IMG/VR virus record: IMGVR_UViG_3300010368_000003
Location: 1-42,018 of that record
DNA: 42,018 nt
Origin: a virus
Strand: one strand, 5' to 3'
In this document: positions 1 to 42,018 of the stretch, in pieces
Numbering within the stretch: position 1 is the first letter of the stretch
Layout: every line of letters begins with the position of its first letter
Notes under the pieces: generated by a model
The model's input: only the letters and a program-made list of their open reading frames with translations
Told to the model about the DNA's origin: nothing
Databases searched by the model: none
Program-made: the position numbers and the translations under genes

Positions 1-123
1 ATGAGACATCTATAGACCCCCAAAGACAACCTAAAGGAATCGTATGACTACAAACAACGAACTCTTGATTGACGTTCAGATCCGCCTTGAATCCGAGATG
101 ACCAAGAAAGGAATAGACCGTTA
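1..123. repeat. Terminal overlap, left copy (identical to 41896-42018)
   Basis: Bases 1-123 are identical to the last 123 bases of the window. They hold the leader and the first 27 codons of the RNA polymerase gene. Because the repeat cuts through a gene and its length is typical of an assembly overlap, I read it as the sign of a circularly closed contig, not as the biological terminal repeat of the virion DNA. T7-like phages do have direct terminal repeats, but these usually lie between the terminase gene and the early genes. Confidence 0.9.
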
Positions 124-2515
124 CATGAAACAGGTGACAGAGTCCAAGCAATCAGGCACTGAAGACAAGCTCACTGCTGCCCAGCAATTGATCAAGCACC
201 ACACCGCAACCTTAGAGGCGGCAGTAACTGAGTGGTATGCAGAGGTCTCGGCAGGCTCCGCAGGGAACCGCAACTTGGCCTACAAGTACCTTAAAGACAT
301 CGATATCGGTGTTGTGGCCTACGTCACAGTGAAGAAGCTGCTGGGCCGTGTGAGTACCCCGGTGATGATCCAAAGAGCAGCCCGAGAGCTGGGCACTGCT
401 TTGGAAGATGAAGTCAAGCTGAAGTTGGTTCGTGAAGAAGAGAGGAAGACCTATGACTCAATCATCAGGGGAGCCAAGAAGAGGGTTTCAGACCACTACA
501 AGAGGGCCTACGCAATCCGCAGGGCCTCCGAAGCTGTAGAGCTTGACCAGTGGCCTGAAATTGATCGAATGCACGTTGGCATGAAGATGATCGACATTGC
601 AATCAACACCCTTGGGTGGTTCACGATTGAGACAAGATCCAAAAGCAAGAACAACACGGCGAAGTTGTTGGTGGCATCACCTGAGCTTATTGCCCAGATG
701 GAAGACAACCACCACATGACTGCCATGCTCCGCCCCGTCTACGAGCCAATGGTAGTCCGTCCCCGCGATTGGACAACACCAACCGATGGGGGTTACCTCT
801 CAACTGAAATTCGCCCCATTAAGCTGGTCAAGATCTCAAGCAAGGGCTACTATGAAGAACTGGCCCACACAGAGATGCCTGTGGTCTATGCTGCTGTAAA
901 CGCCCTACAGGGCACTGCATGGCAGATCAATACCCAAGTACTGGATGTCTTAAAAGAGTTCTGGGAACGAGGTCATGCACTTGCTGGACTGCCTGCCCGT
1001 GAGGGTCGTGAGATCCCCGCGAAGCCTTTTGACATTGAAACCAATGAAGAGGCACGGACTGAGTGGAAACACGCAGCAGCTAAGTGCTACCAGGAGAACA
1101 CTGAAGAGCGTTCTAAACGACTCAATGTGGTGTTCACCATTGACATCGCCACCCGGTACAACGAGTTCCCCCGCATCTATATGCCGTACCAGTTGGATTT
1201 CCGTGGGCGCATCTATGCTGTCCCGGCATTCAATCCACAAGGCCCAGATCACCAGAAGGCACTCCTGAGATTCTCTTACGGGAAACCCTTGGGTGCCAAC
1301 GGAGCCCACTGGCTGGCTATGCATGGTGCCAACGTAGCAGGCAATGACAAAGTAACCCTTGAAGAGCGTGTGCAGTGGGTCTTGGACCACTCCGATGAGA
1401 TCGTTGCCTGTGCCAAAGATCCTCTTGGCAACCGTGACTGGTACACAGAGATTGCAGGGATTGAGATCGATAAGCCTTGGCAATTCTTGGCCTTCTGCTT
1501 TGAGTGGGCAGGCTATGTTGAGTTTGGGGAGTCCTTTGTCTCCAAGCTTGCAGTGGCCCTTGATGGCTCCTGTTCTGGCCTCCAGCACTTCTCCGCAATG
1601 CTGCTGGATCAGGTTGGTGGTGCAGCAGTAAATTTGACCCCTAAAGAGACCCCCGCAGATGTCTACCGAATGGTTGCGGAGAAGGTTGTTGAGTCTCTTG
1701 AATCCCTAGCCACGTCCGAATCGTCCCCAGATGGGGAATTGGCAAGGCAGTGGTTGGCCTTCGGGGTGACCCGCAAGACCACCAAGCGTTCAGTCATGAC
1801 ACTGGCCTACGGATCTCGTAAATATGGGTTCCGTGACCAGATCATGGAGGACACCTTGGAGCCTGCTTACAAGAAGTTTGTTCGTGAGGGAGGAACCTGG
1901 GGGTTTGAGGGGGATGGCTACAAAGCCGCTGCCTTCATGGCTGCTCAGATATGGGATGCAGTGACGAAGACTTTGGTGAAGTCTGTAGAGGCCATGAACT
2001 GGCTTCAGAAGGCTGCTTCTGTGGTGTCTGGGGAAGGCTTACCCATTCGATGGAGTAGCCCTGTGGGGTTCCCTGTGATGCAGGCTTACTGGGACATCAA
2101 GGAGCGCAGGATCACCACTGCCCTCCAAGGCGGGACCATTAAGGTGACTATGGGAGAGAGAACCGACAAGCTGGACCGCAAGGCACAGGCCAACGGGATC
2201 TCCCCCAACTTCATCCACTCCTGCGATGCTGCCCACATGATGCTTACAACAGTCAGGGCAACACAGGAGGGAATCAAGTCCTTCGCAATGATTCACGACT
2301 CCTTTGGGACCACTGCGGCTGAAACTGAAGACCTCTTCCGTATCGTCCGTGAGAGTTTCGTTGAGATGTATTCAGAAGTGGATGTGCTGGGAGGGTTCCG
2401 CGAAGAGATCGTCCGTCAGTTGACTGAAGAGTCTGTGCAGGAACTCCCTGAGTTGCCGGGTAAGGGCAGTTTGGATCTCTCTGGAGTCCTCCTTTCACGC
2501 TTTAGCTTCGCCTGA
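44..2515 (+). CDS. T7-like single-subunit DNA-directed RNA polymerase (T7 gp1 type)
   Basis: This 823-residue protein transcribes the middle and late phage genes from phage-specific promoters. Family motifs are all present: an FRGR segment near residue 385, motif A DGSCSGLQHF with catalytic Asp507, motif B with Arg577, Lys581 and Tyr589 (same spacing as T7 R627/K631/Y639), and motif C HDSFG with catalytic Asp752. The C-terminus is FSFA, matching the conserved FAFA foot of T7 RNAP. Length is slightly below the 883 residues of T7. The ATG follows an AAAGGA ribosome-binding site. A phage-type promoter at 41811-41840 lies upstream on the circular map, so the gene may be autoregulated, and a repeated palindrome next to that promoter is a candidate operator. 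Confidence 0.98.
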   Translation: MTTNNELLIDVQIRLESEMTKKGIDRYMKQVTESKQSGTEDKLTAAQQLIKHHTATLEAAVTEWYAEVSAGSAGNRNLAYKYLKDIDIGVVAYVTVKKLLGRVSTPVMIQRAARELGTALEDEVKLKLVREEERKTYDSIIRGAKKRVSDHYKRAYAIRRASEAVELDQWPEIDRMHVGMKMIDIAINTLGWFTIETRSKSKNNTAKLLVASPELIAQMEDNHHMTAMLRPVYEPMVVRPRDWTTPTDGGYLSTEIRPIKLVKISSKGYYEELAHTEMPVVYAAVNALQGTAWQINTQVLDVLKEFWERGHALAGLPAREGREIPAKPFDIETNEEARTEWKHAAAKCYQENTEERSKRLNVVFTIDIATRYNEFPRIYMPYQLDFRGRIYAVPAFNPQGPDHQKALLRFSYGKPLGANGAHWLAMHGANVAGNDKVTLEERVQWVLDHSDEIVACAKDPLGNRDWYTEIAGIEIDKPWQFLAFCFEWAGYVEFGESFVSKLAVALDGSCSGLQHFSAMLLDQVGGAAVNLTPKETPADVYRMVAEKVVESLESLATSESSPDGELARQWLAFGVTRKTTKRSVMTLAYGSRKYGFRDQIMEDTLEPAYKKFVREGGTWGFEGDGYKAAAFMAAQIWDAVTKTLVKSVEAMNWLQKAASVVSGEGLPIRWSSPVGFPVMQAYWDIKERRITTALQGGTIKVTMGERTDKLDRKAQANGISPNFIHSCDAAHMMLTTVRATQEGIKSFAMIHDSFGTTAAETEDLFRIVRESFVEMYSEVDVLGGFREEIVRQLTEESVQELPELPGKGSLDLSGVLLSRFSFA

Positions 2516-3198: not shown

Positions 3199-3228
3199 AA
3201 TTCCGTTCCGGACACCTAAGGAAATCTC
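3199..3228 (+). promoter_or_regulatory. Phage-type promoter copy 1 (putative phage RNAP promoter)
   Basis: One of four near-identical elements in the genome sharing TCCGTTCCGGACACCT then WAGGARA (others at 14051, 37114, 41811). All are on the + strand, all are intergenic, and all precede a gene module. By analogy with T7 promoters, the GGARA end would be the start of transcription. This copy lies after the RNAP and HNH genes and before the DNA-metabolism cluster. The assignment to the phage RNAP is inference. Confidence 0.75.
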
Positions 3229-5143: not shown

Positions 5144-6754
5144 GTGTCTGTAGATGCTCCAGAGTCTCACTACCTCTACAAAGAATCGTGCCCAGAGTGC
5201 GGAAGCCGAGACAACCTTGCCCGGTACTCCGATGGACACGCTCATTGCTTTGGCTGTGGGCACTACATCCACGGAGATGGCTCCCCAACAACCCAACCCA
5301 CAAGGAAGAATATGTCTTTGATCACAGGCTCCTATCAGGACCTAATAAAGCGCGGAATCAAAGAAGAGACTTGCCGACAGTTTGGTTATCAGGTTGGGGA
5401 GCATCAGGGATTGAAAGTCCAGATTGCTCCTTACTACTCTGCTGATGGTGAACTGGTTGCCCAGAAGATCCGAGGTGCTGATAAGACCTTCAAGATTCTC
5501 GGTGACATCTCTTCGGCCCAACTCTTTGGAGCAAGGCTCTGGGGTTCAGGCAAGAAGATCGTCATCACTGAGGGTGAGATTGATTGTCTGTCTGTCTCCC
5601 AAGTACAGAACGGTAAGTGGCCTGTTGTCTCTGTCCCCAATGGGGCACAGGGTGCAGCCAAGGCCATCAAGAAGAACCTTGAATACTTTGAAAAATTTGA
5701 AGAAGTAATCTTGATGTTCGATATGGATGAACCTGGAGAGAAGGCAGCAAAAGACTGTGCAGCCCTCTTCCCCGTAGGTAAAGCCAAGATCGCAACTCTC
5801 CCCATGAAGGACCCCAATGAACTGCTACAGGCAGGCAAGGGGGACCAGATTGTTCAAGCCATCTGGCAAGCCAAAGCATTCCGACCTGATGGTCTGGTGG
5901 GTGTCTCTGACTTGATGGAAGAACTCAACAAAGACATTGAGCAGGGCCTCCCTTGGTTCCTGCCCTCCCTCACTAAACTAACTTTTGGAAGACGACATGG
6001 AGAAATTTATGGATTGGGTGCGGGGACAGGTATCGGGAAAACCGATGTCTTCACCCAGCAAATTGCCTACGATATCGAGACACTATCAGAGAGAGTTGGC
6101 CTTGTGTTCCTTGAACAACAGCCGACAGAGACTGTCACTCGAGTGGCTGGAAAGCTTGCGGGTAAGAGGTTTCATGTACCTGATGGCACTTGGACAAAAG
6201 AAGAGCGGAACGAGTGGGTCCTAAAGCTTGACGGCAAGGTAACTCTTTACGACAACTTCGGAGAGACCGAGTGGTCCACAGTGGCCTCAAAGATTCGCTA
6301 CATGGCGGTCTCTGAGGGCATCAGGATCTTCTATGTGGATCACCTTACAGCGATGGCTGACACCGCAGATGAGCGAGGTTCGCTGGAACAGATCATGAAG
6401 GAGATGGCCTCACTTGCCAAGGCACTGAAGGTCATCATCCACTTCATCTCCCACTTGGCTACCCCTGATGGCAAGAGCCATGAAGAGGGAGGCCATGTCT
6501 CTATCAGGCATTTCAAAGGAGCCCGAGCAATTGGCTTCTGGAGTCATTTCATGTTCGGCCTCGAAAGAAATCAACAGGCTGAAGATGAGCGAGAGCGCCA
6601 GACAACCACCCTTCGGATTCTCAAGGACCGTTACACGGGACAGTCCACCGGGCAACTGCTCTACCTTGGCTACGACCCCCTCACAGGGCTGCTGTTTGAA
6701 ACAGAAGCACCTGAAGAGCAATCAACTTTCACAGATACAACTAAGGATTTCTAA
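5144..6754 (+). CDS. Bifunctional primase-helicase (T7 gp4 type)
   Basis: A 536-residue replication protein that lays RNA primers and unwinds DNA as a ring. It starts with GTG behind AAAGGAAT. In order: a zinc-binding primase domain (CPECGSRDN...CFGC, residues 15-38), a TOPRIM domain with EGEID and DMDEPG, a linker, then a RecA-like helicase domain with Walker A GTGIGKT (Lys299), a Walker B-like FYVDH, and the KGARAIGFWSHFMFGLERN segment. The C-terminus is acidic and ends in DF, as in T7 gp4, where this tail binds the polymerase. An internal ATG at 5312 (Met57) has its own ribosome-binding site, so a short form lacking the zinc domain is likely (see the separate entry). Confidence 0.97.
   Translation: MSVDAPESHYLYKESCPECGSRDNLARYSDGHAHCFGCGHYIHGDGSPTTQPTRKNMSLITGSYQDLIKRGIKEETCRQFGYQVGEHQGLKVQIAPYYSADGELVAQKIRGADKTFKILGDISSAQLFGARLWGSGKKIVITEGEIDCLSVSQVQNGKWPVVSVPNGAQGAAKAIKKNLEYFEKFEEVILMFDMDEPGEKAAKDCAALFPVGKAKIATLPMKDPNELLQAGKGDQIVQAIWQAKAFRPDGLVGVSDLMEELNKDIEQGLPWFLPSLTKLTFGRRHGEIYGLGAGTGIGKTDVFTQQIAYDIETLSERVGLVFLEQQPTETVTRVAGKLAGKRFHVPDGTWTKEERNEWVLKLDGKVTLYDNFGETEWSTVASKIRYMAVSEGIRIFYVDHLTAMADTADERGSLEQIMKEMASLAKALKVIIHFISHLATPDGKSHEEGGHVSIRHFKGARAIGFWSHFMFGLERNQQAEDERERQTTTLRILKDRYTGQSTGQLLYLGYDPLTGLLFETEAPEEQSTFTDTTKDF
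5301..5314 (+). promoter_or_regulatory. Internal ribosome-binding site and start for short helicase form
   Basis: AAGGAAGAATATG inside the primase-helicase gene places a good Shine-Dalgarno sequence before the in-frame ATG at 5312 (Met57), just after the zinc-binding domain. T7 makes a full-length gp4A and a shorter gp4B from the same kind of internal start. The same arrangement here predicts a helicase-only form of about 480 residues. Confidence 0.65.
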
Positions 6755-37115: not shown

Positions 37116-37143
37116 ATCCGTTCCGGACACCTTAGGAGAATGT
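37114..37143 (+). promoter_or_regulatory. Phage-type promoter copy 3, at the packaging end
   Basis: Third copy of the shared TCCGTTCCGGACACCT-WAGGAGA element; its first bases are the terL stop codon. No gene follows for 1.3 kb. T7 has a promoter of the same kind near its right end (phiOR) that serves replication and packaging, not gene expression. The position here suggests the same use. Confidence 0.75.
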
Positions 37144-37568: not shown

Positions 37569-37868
37569 GGTACTTGAAGTAGATCACTTCATCATGCACC
37601 ATGATCTCCATGACCTGAGAGCCTCACCTTGCCATCCCCGTGGCCTCTGGATGGACTCTTTGGATTGACATGGGCATAGTCCTCAAGCTACACGATAGGG
37701 CCTCCTGAGAGGTTCTAAGGGGGCTCTTAAGAGGGGTCTAAAGATTTGCTACAAAAATGTCTAAGGGTAGCTCGAGTTTCCACCCGCGCGACTCCCCCCG
37801 TGTACCCCCTCGCTTCCCTGTGGTTAATCAGGTGGGTGCCCCTATGGAGAGCCTATTGATTCCCTAGC

Positions 37869-37889
37869 GTGCCACTGTATTAATGGCAC
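37869..37889. promoter_or_regulatory. GTGCCA palindrome, candidate operator
   Basis: GTGCCA (37869-37874) and TGGCAC (37884-37889) face each other across 9 bases, and the flanks AGCGTG and CACGCT pair further with a small bulge. The same hexamer pair, 8 bases apart, occurs twice upstream of the RNAP gene (41453-41472 and 41781-41800). It may bind the same regulator. Confidence 0.5.
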
Positions 37890-37953
37890 GATCACGCTAA
37901 GTCATTGATTCATATGGGATGGCAAGAGATTAGATATCCCATGCACTGTGGGT

Positions 37954-38086: not shown

Positions 38087-38155
38087 TAGCTATCCCCTAA
38101 GACTACCCAATAGCTATCCCCTAAGACAACCAATAGCTATCCTCTATAACACCCA
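38087..38155. repeat. Tandem repeat, three units of 22-24 bp
   Basis: The units start TAGCTATCCCCTAAGAC at 38087 and 38111, and a more diverged third unit follows at 38134. A hairpin GTGCAT/ATGCAC (38158-38174) comes directly after. Short direct repeats here are compatible with an origin, a protein-binding array or the terminal-region repeats of T7-like phages. Confidence 0.75.
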
Positions 38156-38521: not shown

Positions 38522-38555
38522 TCCCCATTACAGGAATATCACTATCATGAAAACA
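38521..38555 (+). repeat. Repeated early-gene leader, copy 1
   Basis: A 35-base stretch that includes the ribosome-binding site and the first codons of the gene at 38547. It matches 38719-38753 at 31 of 35 positions, and both contain ATCCCCATT and TATCACTATCATGAAAACA. Confidence 0.85.
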
Positions 38556-38705
38556 ATATTTGCATCACTTCCAGTAGGTACACGCTTCACCTGTAACGGT
38601 CAAGAGTGCATCAAACAATCCACTCGTACTGCCTTAATGGTCAACGTGGGCCGCGTTTTCTACTATGCACGCACTGACCGCGTCCGTATCCTTGGCACCG
38701 TCTAA
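38547..38705 (+). CDS. Small early protein, 52 aa
   Basis: A 52-residue basic protein (MKTIFASLPVGTRFTCNGQECIKQSTRTALM...GRVFYYARTDRVRIL) with a small all-beta look and two cysteines. It starts behind a leader shared with the next gene. The pattern PVGTRF-x-NG-x-E-x-x-K-x-S-x-x-x-A is like small phage proteins found in early operons, but no function is known to me. Several Arg and Lys residues would suit nucleic-acid binding. It is expected to be expressed early by host RNA polymerase. Confidence 0.7.
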   Translation: MKTIFASLPVGTRFTCNGQECIKQSTRTALMVNVGRVFYYARTDRVRILGTV

Positions 38706-38718
38706 ATTTATCTTAATC

Positions 38719-38753
38719 ATCCCCATTTAAAGAGTATCACTATCATGAAAACA
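38719..38753 (+). repeat. Repeated early-gene leader, copy 2
   Basis: Second copy of the 35-base leader, covering the ribosome-binding region and the start of the gene at 38745. The identity runs into the first three codons (ATGAAAACA), so two successive early genes share leader and N-terminus. Confidence 0.85.
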
Positions 38754-39059
38754 ACCGTATCCCTTTATGACTTCCGCGAAGCCTTCCGTCAGTCAGGCCG
38801 TGAAAACTTCAGTTATGAAGGATTGAGCTTGTTGTTCGAATACTTCGAAGACTGCTCCCCTGATATGGAGCTTGATGTTGTTGCAATTTGCTGCGACTAC
38901 ACGGAAGACGATGCCGTAAGCATTGCGGGGAACTATGACATTGACATCACAGACATGGATGAAGACGAAACCCTTGAAGCGGTGCAGGACTATTTGAACA
39001 ATCACACGTCAGTCATGGGAACCACTTCGCCTGGTTCGATTGTTTACGCTGATTTTTAA
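38745..39059 (+). CDS. Acidic early protein, 104 aa
   Basis: A 104-residue, strongly acidic protein (clusters YFEDCSPDMELDVVAICCDYTEDD near residue 33 and DIDITDMDEDETLEAVQDY near residue 65). Proteins with the FREAF..SGR..FSYEGL..LFEYFE and LDVVAICCDYTE pattern are widespread, uncharacterised phage proteins. Its high negative charge and early position would suit a DNA-mimic or an antirestriction role like T7 gp0.3, but it is not recognisably homologous to Ocr, so this is inference only. The start is fixed by the shared leader. Confidence 0.78.
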   Translation: MKTTVSLYDFREAFRQSGRENFSYEGLSLLFEYFEDCSPDMELDVVAICCDYTEDDAVSIAGNYDIDITDMDEDETLEAVQDYLNNHTSVMGTTSPGSIVYADF

Positions 39060-39707: not shown

Positions 39708-39887
39708 ATGAAGTGTAAAATAATTCCAGTCGATATCTTTATCGAAATCGTCCCCACTACAGAAGTTTCTCTGATAGTGGATTTTCTTATTGACGAGGCA
39801 AACCTTGAAATTTGGCTATACCGCCTCCATCTAATAATCTCGAAAAAGGTTACATATGTCCACAAATACACGGATCGCAGCGAATAA
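39708..39887 (+). CDS. Small hypothetical protein, 59 aa
   Basis: A 59-codon frame with a strong AAAGGAG ribosome-binding site four bases before the ATG. The product (MKCKIIPVDIFIEIVPTTEVSLIVDFLIDEANLEIWLYRLHLIISKKV...) is rich in Ile, Val and Leu with alternating charges and looks like a small alpha/beta or beta-rich protein. It overlaps the start of the MarR-like gene by 32 bases, so the two are probably coupled. Lying at the head of the lysogeny operon, it could be an excisionase or a Cro-like partner, but no helix-turn-helix is evident and this is speculation. Confidence 0.55.
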   Translation: MKCKIIPVDIFIEIVPTTEVSLIVDFLIDEANLEIWLYRLHLIISKKVTYVHKYTDRSE

Positions 39888-40212
39888 GACCCTGCAAATA
39901 CTGAACACAATCAGGGCTCAAGAGCAAGATATGCCCCTAGGTCAAGCCGTTAGCATCATGCTGATCGCCCTGGGTGAAACAAGTGATGGTGGGGGCCTCT
40001 CAGGAACTGAACTGGAGAAGCAGGGGCAGTTCTCAAGAGCCTCCGCTGGACGCTATGCCAATGCACTAGCTACGGTGGACCGTAAAGGTGACCCCGGCCT
40101 TGATCTGGTCAGCTATGCACGCAAGCCCACAGATGACCGCACGAAGGTCCTCAGGCTCACCAAAAAGGGACAGCTTCTGATGTCCCAAATTGCTGCAATA
40201 CTGGAGAAATAA
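39856..40212 (+). CDS. MarR-like winged-helix DNA-binding protein
   Basis: A 118-residue protein with the order of elements of a MarR-type winged helix: MPLGQAVSIMLIALGETSDGGGLSGTELEKQGQFSRASAGRYANALATV (helix-turn-helix, about residues 26-74), then LVSYARKPTDDRTKVLRLTKKGQLLMSQIAAIL (the wing with its DxR turn, followed by a C-terminal helix). MarR proteins bind short palindromes as dimers. The stop is one base before the integrase ATG, so the two genes form an operon. It is the best candidate for the lysogeny regulator, and the GTGCCA palindromes near the RNAP gene are candidate targets. Neither function is shown directly. Confidence 0.75.
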   Translation: MSTNTRIAANKTLQILNTIRAQEQDMPLGQAVSIMLIALGETSDGGGLSGTELEKQGQFSRASAGRYANALATVDRKGDPGLDLVSYARKPTDDRTKVLRLTKKGQLLMSQIAAILEK

Positions 40213-40213
40213 C

Positions 40214-41227
40214 ATGGCTGTATATCCAAAAGGAGAGCGCTTCATGGGCTCCGTAGGGACAGGCGAAGAGAGGGTCAGGAAGACCTTCAAGACTGTTTCC
40301 GAGGCACAAGTATGGGTTGAGGAAGAAGAGGCCCGTAGAGCGGCTTCTGAGGCCCTTGCCGCCACCTTGGAGAGTGTCCCAACTTGCTGGACTCTTCAAG
40401 AGGCCCTAGACCAAGTCCATAGACACGTCTGGAAGGGTACTGGGGGAGAGTCAAAGGCACTGATCAATGCAGGCCAAGCCTTGGCTTTTTTTGGTCCCGG
40501 TACTCTCGTATCTGAGATAGACGCTGGATGGATTATTGAGTGGATGGAAGAGTTGCAGGATGAAGAGGGCAATTCAGGGTCCACCTGCAATAAGAAGCTC
40601 AGTGCCCTGTCAATGATGCTTAAGAGGTCCGAAGAGTTCGGCGGCTTGCTCTCCTTACCCAAAATGAAACGATACAAAGAGTCACAGCACCGTATTCGCT
40701 GGTTCAGTGATGCCGAAGAGTCGGCAATGCTCAAGATGTCCCTACATCTCGGAATGCCTGATCTCCATGACTTCATTGTCATTGGGCTGGATACTGGGTT
40801 TCGTAAGAGCGAACTACTGGGCCTCACGATGCAGGACTATCACAAGGGGATGCTCATGCTTCACGCAGGAGAGACCAAGAATGGTGACTCACGGTCTATT
40901 CCCTGCTCTGCCCGAGTCAAGGAGATCTTGACCAAGAAGACCAACAAGGTATTCCCCACGCTCACCCATGCGATGCTCCGCAAGCAGTGGGAAGACCTCC
41001 GCTCGGTACTCCAGAAAGATGATGACCCAGGTTTCATTATTCATGTACTCCGCCACACCTGTGCGACCAGGCTGGTATCTGAAGGGGTTCCATTGACAAC
41101 CGTGCAGAACTGGATGGGTCACAAGGTCATTCAGACAACAATGAGGTATGCACACATGGCTCATGGACAGCTTCAGGCTGCTGTTGCTTTGCTTGAAGCG
41201 AGAATCCCGGAATCAAGTAGCGTATAA
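40214..41227 (+). CDS. int: Tyrosine recombinase, phage integrase
   Basis: A 337-residue site-specific recombinase. Catalytic residues are visible in the expected order: Arg197 (TGFRKSELLGL), a Lys in the ETKNGDSRSIP beta turn, His277 and Arg280 (HVLRHT), His303 (NWMGHK) and the nucleophile Tyr312 (MRYAH). The N-terminal ~65 residues form a small arm-binding-type domain with basic residues, followed by a core-binding helical domain. The frame opens earlier, but ATG 40214 has GGAG upstream and lies one base after the MarR-like stop. A complete tRNA-Leu gene starts 10 bases after the stop, the usual position of attP. Confidence 0.96.
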   Translation: MAVYPKGERFMGSVGTGEERVRKTFKTVSEAQVWVEEEEARRAASEALAATLESVPTCWTLQEALDQVHRHVWKGTGGESKALINAGQALAFFGPGTLVSEIDAGWIIEWMEELQDEEGNSGSTCNKKLSALSMMLKRSEEFGGLLSLPKMKRYKESQHRIRWFSDAEESAMLKMSLHLGMPDLHDFIVIGLDTGFRKSELLGLTMQDYHKGMLMLHAGETKNGDSRSIPCSARVKEILTKKTNKVFPTLTHAMLRKQWEDLRSVLQKDDDPGFIIHVLRHTCATRLVSEGVPLTTVQNWMGHKVIQTTMRYAHMAHGQLQAAVALLEARIPESSSV

Positions 41228-41237
41228 TTCGTATCGT

Positions 41238-41322
41238 GCCCCGATGGCGGAATTGGTAGACGCGCTTGACTCAAAATCAAGTATCGAAGGGTGTGCTGGT
41301 TCGATTCCAGTTCGGGGCACCA
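41238..41322 (+). tRNA. tRNA-Leu (anticodon CAA), probable attP region
   Basis: The full cloverleaf can be traced: acceptor GCCCCGA/TCGGGGC, D stem GCG/CGC, anticodon stem CTTGA/TCAAG with loop CTCAAAA (anticodon CAA), a 13-base variable arm as in class II tRNAs, T stem GCTGG/CCAGT with loop TTCGATT, and an encoded CCA end. It is 85 bases long with CCA. It lies 10 bases after the integrase stop. tRNA-Leu genes are known integration targets of T7-like cyanophages and pelagiphages, so this is probably the attachment region, here with an intact tRNA. Confidence 0.95.
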
Positions 41323-41332
41323 TTAATAAAGT

Positions 41333-41356
41333 AACCACCCAAGAGGTGGTTTTTTA
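41333..41356 (+). terminator. Intrinsic terminator after tRNA-Leu
   Basis: AACCACC-CAAGA-GGTGGTT forms a 7-bp stem followed by a run of T. It lies 10 bases after the CCA end and ends transcription of the integrase-tRNA unit. Confidence 0.85.
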
Positions 41357-41373
41357 ACGTCTGTAAACAATTC

Positions 41374-41421
41374 AAATAGGGTGCCGATTCGATTCCCAAA
41401 TAGGGTGCCGATTCGATTCCC
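41374..41421. repeat. Perfect tandem repeat, 2 x 24 bp, resembling a tRNA T-arm
   Basis: Two identical, directly adjacent copies of a 24-bp unit containing GGTGCCGATTCGATTCCC. The GATTCGATTCC part resembles the T-arm of the adjacent tRNA (GGTTCGATTCC). They may be integrase arm-binding sites, remnants of attachment-site duplication, or operator half-sites, since each holds a GTGCC. Confidence 0.85.
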
Positions 41422-41448
41422 GTTTAAAAGCGTGCCATAAATCGTGCC

Positions 41449-41472
41449 ATTCGTGCCATAACTTAGTGGCAC
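41449..41472. promoter_or_regulatory. GTGCCA palindrome, 24-bp repeat copy 1 (candidate operator)
   Basis: ATTC followed by GTGCCATAACTTAGTGGCAC. The 6-bp arms GTGCCA and TGGCAC face each other across 8 bases. The whole 24-bp string recurs exactly at 41777-41800. Further single GTGCCA or TGGCAC words lie at 41432, 41444, 41477, 41575 and 41770. Confidence 0.75.
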
Positions 41473-41668
41473 CAACTGGCACAGATCGGAGACTCTCCCG
41501 CATAAAGAATATATATTAAATGGATTTAATCATATGAATCAACAACTTAGCTTACATCATGCATAGACCAAACTGTGCCATAATACATACCACTGAGACT
41601 CAAAATCCCGCGTAACACTTTAAAAAATCCCTCTCCAAAATAAGACAGTCATTCAAACGTGATATCAT

Positions 41669-41707
41669 TAGACACCTCTCCTTCATTGGGCGGTGTCTAT
41701 TTTTTTG
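41669..41707 (+). terminator. Intrinsic terminator upstream of RNAP control region
   Basis: A perfect 8-bp stem TAGACACC / GGTGTCTA with a 15-base loop followed by TTTTTTT. It insulates the RNAP gene from upstream transcription, so RNAP expression must start within the next ~190 bases. Confidence 0.85.
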
Positions 41708-41776
41708 TCTATTCGATCTCCAAAGACTGATAAACACTAAATTGATACTACTAAATAATGGGGAGCTTAGTGCCAC

Positions 41777-41800
41777 ATTCGTGCCATAACTTAGTGGCAC
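41777..41800. promoter_or_regulatory. GTGCCA palindrome, 24-bp repeat copy 2, next to the RNAP promoter
   Basis: Exact second copy of the 24-bp repeat at 41449. It ends 10 bases before phage-type promoter copy 4. A dimeric repressor bound here, or looping between the two copies 328 bp apart, could shut off RNAP expression. This function is inference. Confidence 0.7.
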
Positions 41801-41810
41801 ACCATTCTCG

Positions 41811-41840
41811 AAATCCGTTCCGGACACCTAAGGAGAACTC
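41811..41840 (+). promoter_or_regulatory. Phage-type promoter copy 4, upstream of RNAP
   Basis: Fourth copy of the TCCGTTCCGGACACCT-WAGGAGA element, about 100 bases before the RNAP ATG on the circular map (ATG at 41939 in the repeated end). If read by the phage polymerase, it makes a positive feedback loop on RNAP itself. Confidence 0.75.
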
Positions 41841-41895
41841 TAAAGAGATATCTAAAGAAACCACTCTTAAGTAACCAATCTATAGATACAACTCA

Positions 41896-42018
41896 ATGAG
41901 ACATCTATAGACCCCCAAAGACAACCTAAAGGAATCGTATGACTACAAACAACGAACTCTTGATTGACGTTCAGATCCGCCTTGAATCCGAGATGACCAA
42001 GAAAGGAATAGACCGTTA
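41896..42018. repeat. Terminal overlap, right copy (identical to 1-123)
   Basis: The last 123 bases repeat bases 1-123 without a difference, so the unit length of the circle is 41,895 bp. The repeat contains the RNAP leader and the beginning of its coding sequence. Confidence 0.95.
41939..42018 (+). CDS. RNA polymerase gene, 5' end repeated by circular overlap (partial)
   Basis: The first 26 complete codons of the gene at 44-2515 appear again because the contig ends overlap. This is not a second gene. The same AAAGGA ribosome-binding site precedes the ATG. In a closed map this entry merges with the gene at 44. Confidence 0.95.
   Translation, partial: MTTNNELLIDVQIRLESEMTKKGIDR

Follow-up and report, generated by a model that had tools for sequence, protein, structure and literature searches.

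The intergenic spacer at positions 41323-41938 of the window (the whole stretch of DNA analysed, a virus record of 42,018 bp) is probably an attP. Its GTGCCA repeats would be integrase arm-type sites, its core would lie at 41597-41607, lysogeny would be tRNA-dependent, and the phage RNA polymerase (RNAP) gene would be silenced by integration. The spacer is read in this way because relatives share its plan and because prophage attL and attR cores in those relatives lie within a tRNA gene. The most likely interpretation of the sequence is a T7-like phage with the anatomy of tRNA-dependent lysogeny, whose attP carries integrase arm sites.

How a T7-like phage can be temperate although its own RNA polymerase drives lytic growth is an open question. 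The answer proposed so far invokes MarR sites at the promoter of RNAP, and the repeats on which it may depend look more like integrase arm sites. The layout described here offers a simpler, testable idea, namely that integration disconnects RNAP from early transcription, and it would extend tRNA-dependent lysogeny, known from actinophages, to T7-like phages. Control of RNAP would then be a consequence of where the att site is placed; one conserved genome-end element was found besides.

Genome organization and relatives

The first 123 bp of the window are identical to its last 123 bp, and because the ends form this exact repeat, the RNAP gene that starts at 41939 continues at position 44. The joining of the gene through the terminal repeat had been overlooked in a preliminary description of the window, as had the 11-bp copy of a tRNA anticodon loop discussed below. 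Gene order is that of the Autographiviridae (T7-like), with RNAP, a gp2.5-like SSB of the T7 type, endonuclease I and an amidase in sequence. The RNAP is closest to those of Bordetella phage BB8 and Limnohabitans phage YIMV22061 (~50% identity), and that of a metagenomic contig, L102, the closest relative, is 72% identical; no close DNA relatives of the region were found among GenBank phages.

The product of the gene at 39856 is homologous to LUZ100 gp10 and P-SSP7 gp0.7. Its predicted structure (AlphaFold pLDDT 91; top PDB matches MexR, MepR and MarR) makes a MarR fold convincing. A scan of viral contigs with this protein returned no matches because the query was too short and too diverged. 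The N-terminal region of the neighbouring tyrosine integrase can be aligned across relatives, is missing in HTVC019P, and is regarded as putatively arm-binding; a Pfam search found no arm-binding model matching it.

Features of the integrase-RNAP region and the left genome end (window coordinates)
Feature	Position	Strand	Details
Word pair near left genome end, inverted (37869/37884)	37868..37890	.	~70 bp inside C6 motif 37794-37799
MarR-like winged-helix protein, directly upstream of integrase	39856..40212	+	phrog_9665, E 1.7e-17
Tyrosine integrase, arm-binding-like N-terminal region (~residues 1-57) and catalytic domain	40214..41227	+	Pfam Phage_integrase, E 1.8e-19
Intact tRNA-Leu (CAA), presumed substitute for split host tRNA	41238..41322	+	ARAGORN; anticodon loop same as candidate attP core
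Weak terminator 3' of tRNA	41331..41352	+	hairpin -9.3 kcal/mol and T run
Tandem pair of 25-bp string CAAATAGGGTGCCGATTCGATTCCC, 24-bp period	41373..41421	+	tRNA T-arm-like
Putative left (P) arm	41432..41482	+	GTGCCA words 41432, 41444, 41453 (+), 41467, 41477 (-); holds first 25-bp copy
Core-proximal site GTGCCATAA	41575..41583	+	
Candidate attP core GACTCAAAATC, equal to tRNA-Leu(CAA) anticodon loop	41597..41607	+	within a 15-bp string that L102 shares exactly
Strong intrinsic terminator between core and RNAP	41667..41702	+	-15.5 kcal/mol
Putative right (P') arm	41770..41800	+	words 41770, 41781 (+), 41795 (-); holds second 25-bp copy
Phage-RNAP-type promoter reading into RNAP	41811..41836	+	four genome copies; CACCTAAGGAGA kept in L102 at similar distance from palindrome
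Phage RNA polymerase gene start	41939..42018, then 44-2515	+	Pfam RNA_pol, E 5.5e-110; phrog_414; terminal overlap

Repeats, core and promoter in the spacer

The sites, the core and their layout were seen directly in the window. Two exact repeats 328 bp apart had been reported previously; the spacing holds, and the length is 25 bp rather than the 24 bp given (CATTCGTGCCATAACTTAGTGGCAC, 41448-41472 and 41776-41800). They contain a 20-bp palindrome that is confined to these two positions even when 3 mismatches are allowed (0.01 expected). The five further GTGCCA or TGGCAC words were confirmed at 41432, 41444, 41477, 41575 and 41770, and four more lie inside the palindromes, so that nine occur in 376 bp against 0.23 expected (Poisson p ~3.5e-12). 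Six words stand to the left of the core and three to the right, those of the left arm being spaced in steps of 9-14 bp. The tandem CAAATAGGGTGCCGATTCGATTCCC pair (copies at 41373 and 41397) lies downstream of the tRNA terminator and ahead of the first arm site.

The string GACTCAAAATC occurs twice in the window, once in the anticodon loop of the phage tRNA-Leu(CAA), at 41268, and once by itself at 41597, between the two repeat groups. The 11-bp candidate core is thus identical to the tRNA-Leu(CAA) anticodon loop; the real attL and attR sequences considered below come from relatives. A core of 11 bp is too short to rebuild a host tRNA, and the phage carries an intact tRNA-Leu(CAA) of its own (41238-41322), which fits tRNA-dependent lysogeny.

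Two other elements of the preliminary description were also recovered. The phage-type promoter begins 10-12 bp beyond the end of the second repeat, and the strong terminator is a hairpin at 41667-41702 (-15.5 kcal/mol) with a T run. Three further copies of the promoter-like string AAATCCGTTCCGGACACCTAAGGAGA, with 1-2 mismatches, are found at 3201, 14053 and 37116, always on the + strand. The copy at 37116-37139 begins directly after the ORF at the terminase end and points toward the left genome end.

Comparison of spacers among related phages

The order MarR, integrase, spacer, RNAP is common to the annotated relatives. In L102 most of the spacer has diverged, and what is retained is a 15-bp identical string, GAGACTCAAAATCCC, with GTGCCA words before it and the palindrome GTGCCATCTGAAGTGGCAC after it; the start of the palindrome lies 43 bp from the promoter string there and 44 bp in the window. 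A gene for an HD-domain protein (SpoT-like by eye) is found between attP and RNAP in L102 (4130-4700).

A core between two groups of sites was seen in the window, L102, Pasto, Lo5R7ANS, RHEph21, LUZ100 and others, and spacers next to full-length integrases tend to have a tRNA-like string flanked on either side by a word of the phage's own: CGACACA in LUZ100, TGACACA/TGCCACA in RHEph21, TGTGCCA in Pasto, GTGACAA in Lo5R7ANS and TGCAACC in ProddE. Over the 50 loci having both MarR and a full-length integrase, TGNCACA words reach 6.24/kb in the spacer vs 0.46-0.72/kb elsewhere. The motif was not reliably recovered in Parvibaculum, Inquilinus, Reyranella and S-SRP02; in Parvibaculum the predicted TGCA-type words were not found in a stretch that ended short of its att core. 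The loci L158, L160, L162 and L170, which are MarR-less and have short spacers, showed no clear cluster of arm-type repeats.

It is highly improbable that a host protein uses the repeats as its sites, or that they are functionless remnants of a tRNA-derived duplication. The tandem strings at 41373 and 41397 do resemble a tRNA T-arm, but the motif changes from phage to phage in step with a domain of a phage protein, and the strong enrichment and conserved layout extend over about 50 loci.

Prophages and att junctions

A scan of bacterial genomes with RNAP gave 80 loci, and integrase was searched in 31 of the genomes holding them. In 14 of the 31 it was found on the contig and strand of RNAP, at the opposite prophage end and 37.0-43.0 kb away, with MarR-like genes beside it. 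These prophage layouts, and the split tRNAs of relatives, were seen directly.

Cores of attL and attR within a tRNA gene were found in nine prophages. At the junctions, the 5' half of the host tRNA is followed by the core and the RNAP side, and the integrase side by the core and the 3' half. In six relatives the cores are short (11-17 bp) and the host tRNA is divided: Rhizobium anhuiense (CAGATTTAGGTT), R. mongolense (CAGATTTAGGTTCTG), Litchfieldella (CTGGATTTAGGTT), Xanthobacter YC-JY1 (GACTTAAAATC), Parvibaculum (17 bp) and Rhodopseudomonas (CTTAAAATCC-type). Close to the integrase, each of these six tRNA-Leu prophages has an intact tRNA-Leu with the same anticodon, and in the Litchfieldella lysogen the phage tRNA is the sole full-length match, the two other matches being the host halves. 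Cores that rebuild the tRNA were present in Pseudomonas putida (55 bp) and Methylovorus (60 bp), both in tRNA-Leu, and in X. aminoxidans (17 bp, tRNA-Cys). Searches for att cores in OTTO1, Reyranella, Inquilinus and RhizobialesAFS found none, and the result for Endozoicomonas was uncertain.

Protein binding the repeats

The preliminary description, like a published hypothesis, took the palindromes for operators: bound there, perhaps with a loop joining the copies, the MarR-like protein would repress the phage promoter that serves RNAP. We consider this unlikely. A MarR-fold regulator is indeed encoded nearby (phrog_9665; predicted fold) and a MarR gene accompanies the repeats in most phages bearing them, but the sites do not occur wherever MarR does: they are missing in the MarR-positive phages HTVC019P, Jormungand, P-SSP7, S-CBP2 and S-CBP3, whose integrases do not have the N-terminal arm-binding region, and S-CBP1, of the same group, has only a tRNA-related triple word. 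Conversely, ProddE encodes a CI-like repressor and no MarR, yet TGCAACC repeats flank its tRNA-like core. BB8 and L110, also MarR-less, have no full site set in the spacer, which counts against the arm-site reading, but keep sites at the genome end, which counts against the MarR reading; in L110 the integrase-RNAP spacer (5560-5900) holds an ORF resembling an HNH endonuclease, and the arm words are gone together with MarR. The operator reading based on presence and absence is weakened by these MarR-positive phages without repeats and the MarR-less phage with them. At integrase-bearing loci, the co-occurrence of spacer repeats and MarR is not decisive, because most loci hold both genes and many MarR-less spacers are too short for an attP. 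In T7-like elements of a Vampirovibrionales genome (L027:6457-7707; L044:6220-6990), two or three MarR-like genes precede RNAP, with no integrase there.

The type of word was also compared with protein phylogenies. When words were assigned to a TGCA-type and a CAC-type class, drawn after the data had been partly viewed and with only 4-5 phages in the TGCA-type, the class changed once on the tree of the arm-binding region, three times on the MarR tree and three times on the tree of the integrase catalytic domain. An AU test of a single TGCA-class clade did not reject it on the MarR tree (p 0.144) and gave p 0.024 on the catalytic tree. The motif class would thus appear to track the arm-binding region more than MarR; this evidence is good but not conclusive, because the smaller class has 4-5 phages and the classes were set after partial viewing.

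Position within the spacer bears on both proteins. The right copy ends ~10 bp from the promoter and the distance of 43-44 bp is kept between L102 and the window, as an operator would suggest, but none of the other three phage promoters (3201, 14053, 37116) has GTGCCA words, and in Pasto and Lo5R7ANS, where other genes separate integrase, att site and RNAP, the words remain beside the core. The spacing of sites is variable and repeats may be direct: the two halves of the palindrome are separated by 8 in the window and 7 in L102, which suits independent sites better than a single dimeric operator, and direct repeats about one helical turn apart occur in L066, L151 and L131, with phased direct repeats also in Lo5R7ANS, an arrangement unlike one dimeric operator. 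MarR might nevertheless repress the adjacent phage promoter, because in L102 as in the window the right-hand sites border directly on it, and a word identical to that of the attP lies near the early region. The MarR-like protein, as modelled, may regulate elsewhere or at promoter-proximal sites.

Sites shared by both proteins are quite unlikely as well. The repeats would then be integrase arms, some of them also bound by the MarR-like protein, which would act as promoter regulator and recombination directionality factor in the manner of P2 Cox or 186 Apl. The winged-helix gene lies directly upstream of int, as xis and int are likewise adjacent in lambda, and one word is used both at attP and near the left end beside the early region. 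The predicted fold, however, matches MarR dimers (MexR, MepR), with MarR-type regulators as the top PDB hits, and the genome-end pairs are kept without MarR. With integrase arm sites as the preferred reading, the earlier idea of a lysogeny switch at RNAP stands insofar as the region is a lysogeny apparatus that sets the link of RNAP to upstream transcription; it is less likely to hold as regards MarR operators, since the repeats flank an anticodon-loop core, follow the integrase arm-binding region and occur without MarR.

Proposed mechanism

We infer that the integrase binds the repeats, that this phage integrates at 41597-41607 and that RNAP is silenced as a result. The GTGCCA repeats, both 25-bp copies included, would be bound by the integrase's N-terminal region, and the strands would be exchanged at the 11-bp core. 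Integration would split the host's tRNA-Leu(CAA) gene, whose role the intact phage tRNA would take over. In the free genome RNAP would be reachable by read-through from the early operon; after integration it would lie at one prophage end, with the early region, MarR and int at the other, because attP is situated between the MarR-integrase pair and the RNAP gene. Transcription from the host tRNA promoter would then run toward RNAP and be halted by the terminator at 41667-41702, which lies between the core and that gene. Such an insulating role appears to be a trend, not a rule, because of 26 relatives 16 had a terminator on the RNAP side and 9 had one on the opposite side; its position as a universal rule was dropped.

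A broader proposal is made only tentatively and is, on balance, doubtful: that integration itself is the lysogeny switch of temperate T7-like phages, with RNAP cut from early promoters, the terminator as a shield, integrase acting at the genome-end pair, and no classical repressor needed to establish lysogeny.

Word pair at the left genome end

The related palindrome previously placed in the early region at 37869-37889 is present at 37868-37890. Relatives carry a pair of their phage-specific word close to the left genome end. It is mostly a direct pair with a 12-bp step, sits ~45-75 bp inward of a C-rich motif and, in genomes with an annotated terminal repeat, falls inside that repeat. Pairs were seen in LUZ100 (90/102), BB8 (105/117), L110 (452/464) and RHEph21 (85/98, 13 bp), and also in L164 and L176; those of Lo5R7ANS (83/95) and Pasto (104/116) were predicted and then found. 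The pair is retained in BB8 and L110 although both are MarR-less. ProddE has a single TGCAACC at 112, the genome-end word of CRP-361 is TTGCACC, the same as its own att class, and the ends of P-SSP7 and HTVC019P showed no pair of this kind. Coordinates of the pair are 37868-37890 in the window, L219:90-108, L220:83-102, L221:104-122, L021:75-94, L009:105-123 and L110:452-470.

The pair is not obviously explained by integrase function and may represent a new element; integrase acting on the genome end, on early promoters or in end processing are guesses. Elsewhere in the early region, the leader TATCACTATCATGAAAACAA is repeated before two ORFs (38537-38556 and 38735-38754), and TAGCTATCCCCTAAGAC is present twice, at 38087 and 38111.

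Comparison with known systems

In attP sites of the lambda type the core is flanked by P and P' arms of short repeated sites. The spacer shares with them two groups of repeated sites around a core, some in tandem about one helical turn apart, and differs in sequence, in having its core in a tRNA anticodon loop and in a right arm that abuts the phage RNAP promoter.

Lysogeny dependent on tRNA has been described for Fionnbharth and other actinophages (Guerrero-Bustamante and Hatfull 2024, PMC10865867), where arm-type sites flank the core; its prevalence outside actinophages was left open by those authors. With the spacer read as attP, shared features are a short core (~10 bp) in a tRNA gene, flanking arm-type sites and a phage tRNA of the same isotype, and the N-terminal arm-binding domain of the actinophage integrase would have its counterpart in the putative arm-binding-like region found here. 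Unlike those systems, the present one belongs to T7-like podoviruses and has its putative attP between int and the phage RNA polymerase gene. In the integration-dependent immunity of mycobacteriophages (PMC10865867), integration itself likewise alters expression of a key regulator, as it would here; there a repressor gene is restructured, whereas here RNAP would lose its upstream promoters.

The lysogeny region of Pseudomonas phage LUZ100 (Putzeys et al. 2023, PMC10134795) resembles that of the window in the MarR-like gene and integrase forming one operon, the terminator, the phage promoter before RNAP and the tRNA-Leu, and repeated CGACACA words flank a core-like string, ACTTAAAA; unlike in the window, the tRNA lies between MarR and int and on the minus strand. 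In the sections of that paper considered here, sites flanking the RNAP promoter are cited as MarR binding sites through which MarR repression is proposed, no attP is named in the spacer, read-through into RNAP from the early operon is proposed, and a stable lysogen was not obtained. Desulfovibrio phage ProddE (MZ666938) shares a related integrase, repeats flanking a tRNA-like core and a T7-like RNAP, and differs from the window in that a CI-like repressor replaces MarR and the repeat is TGCAACC.
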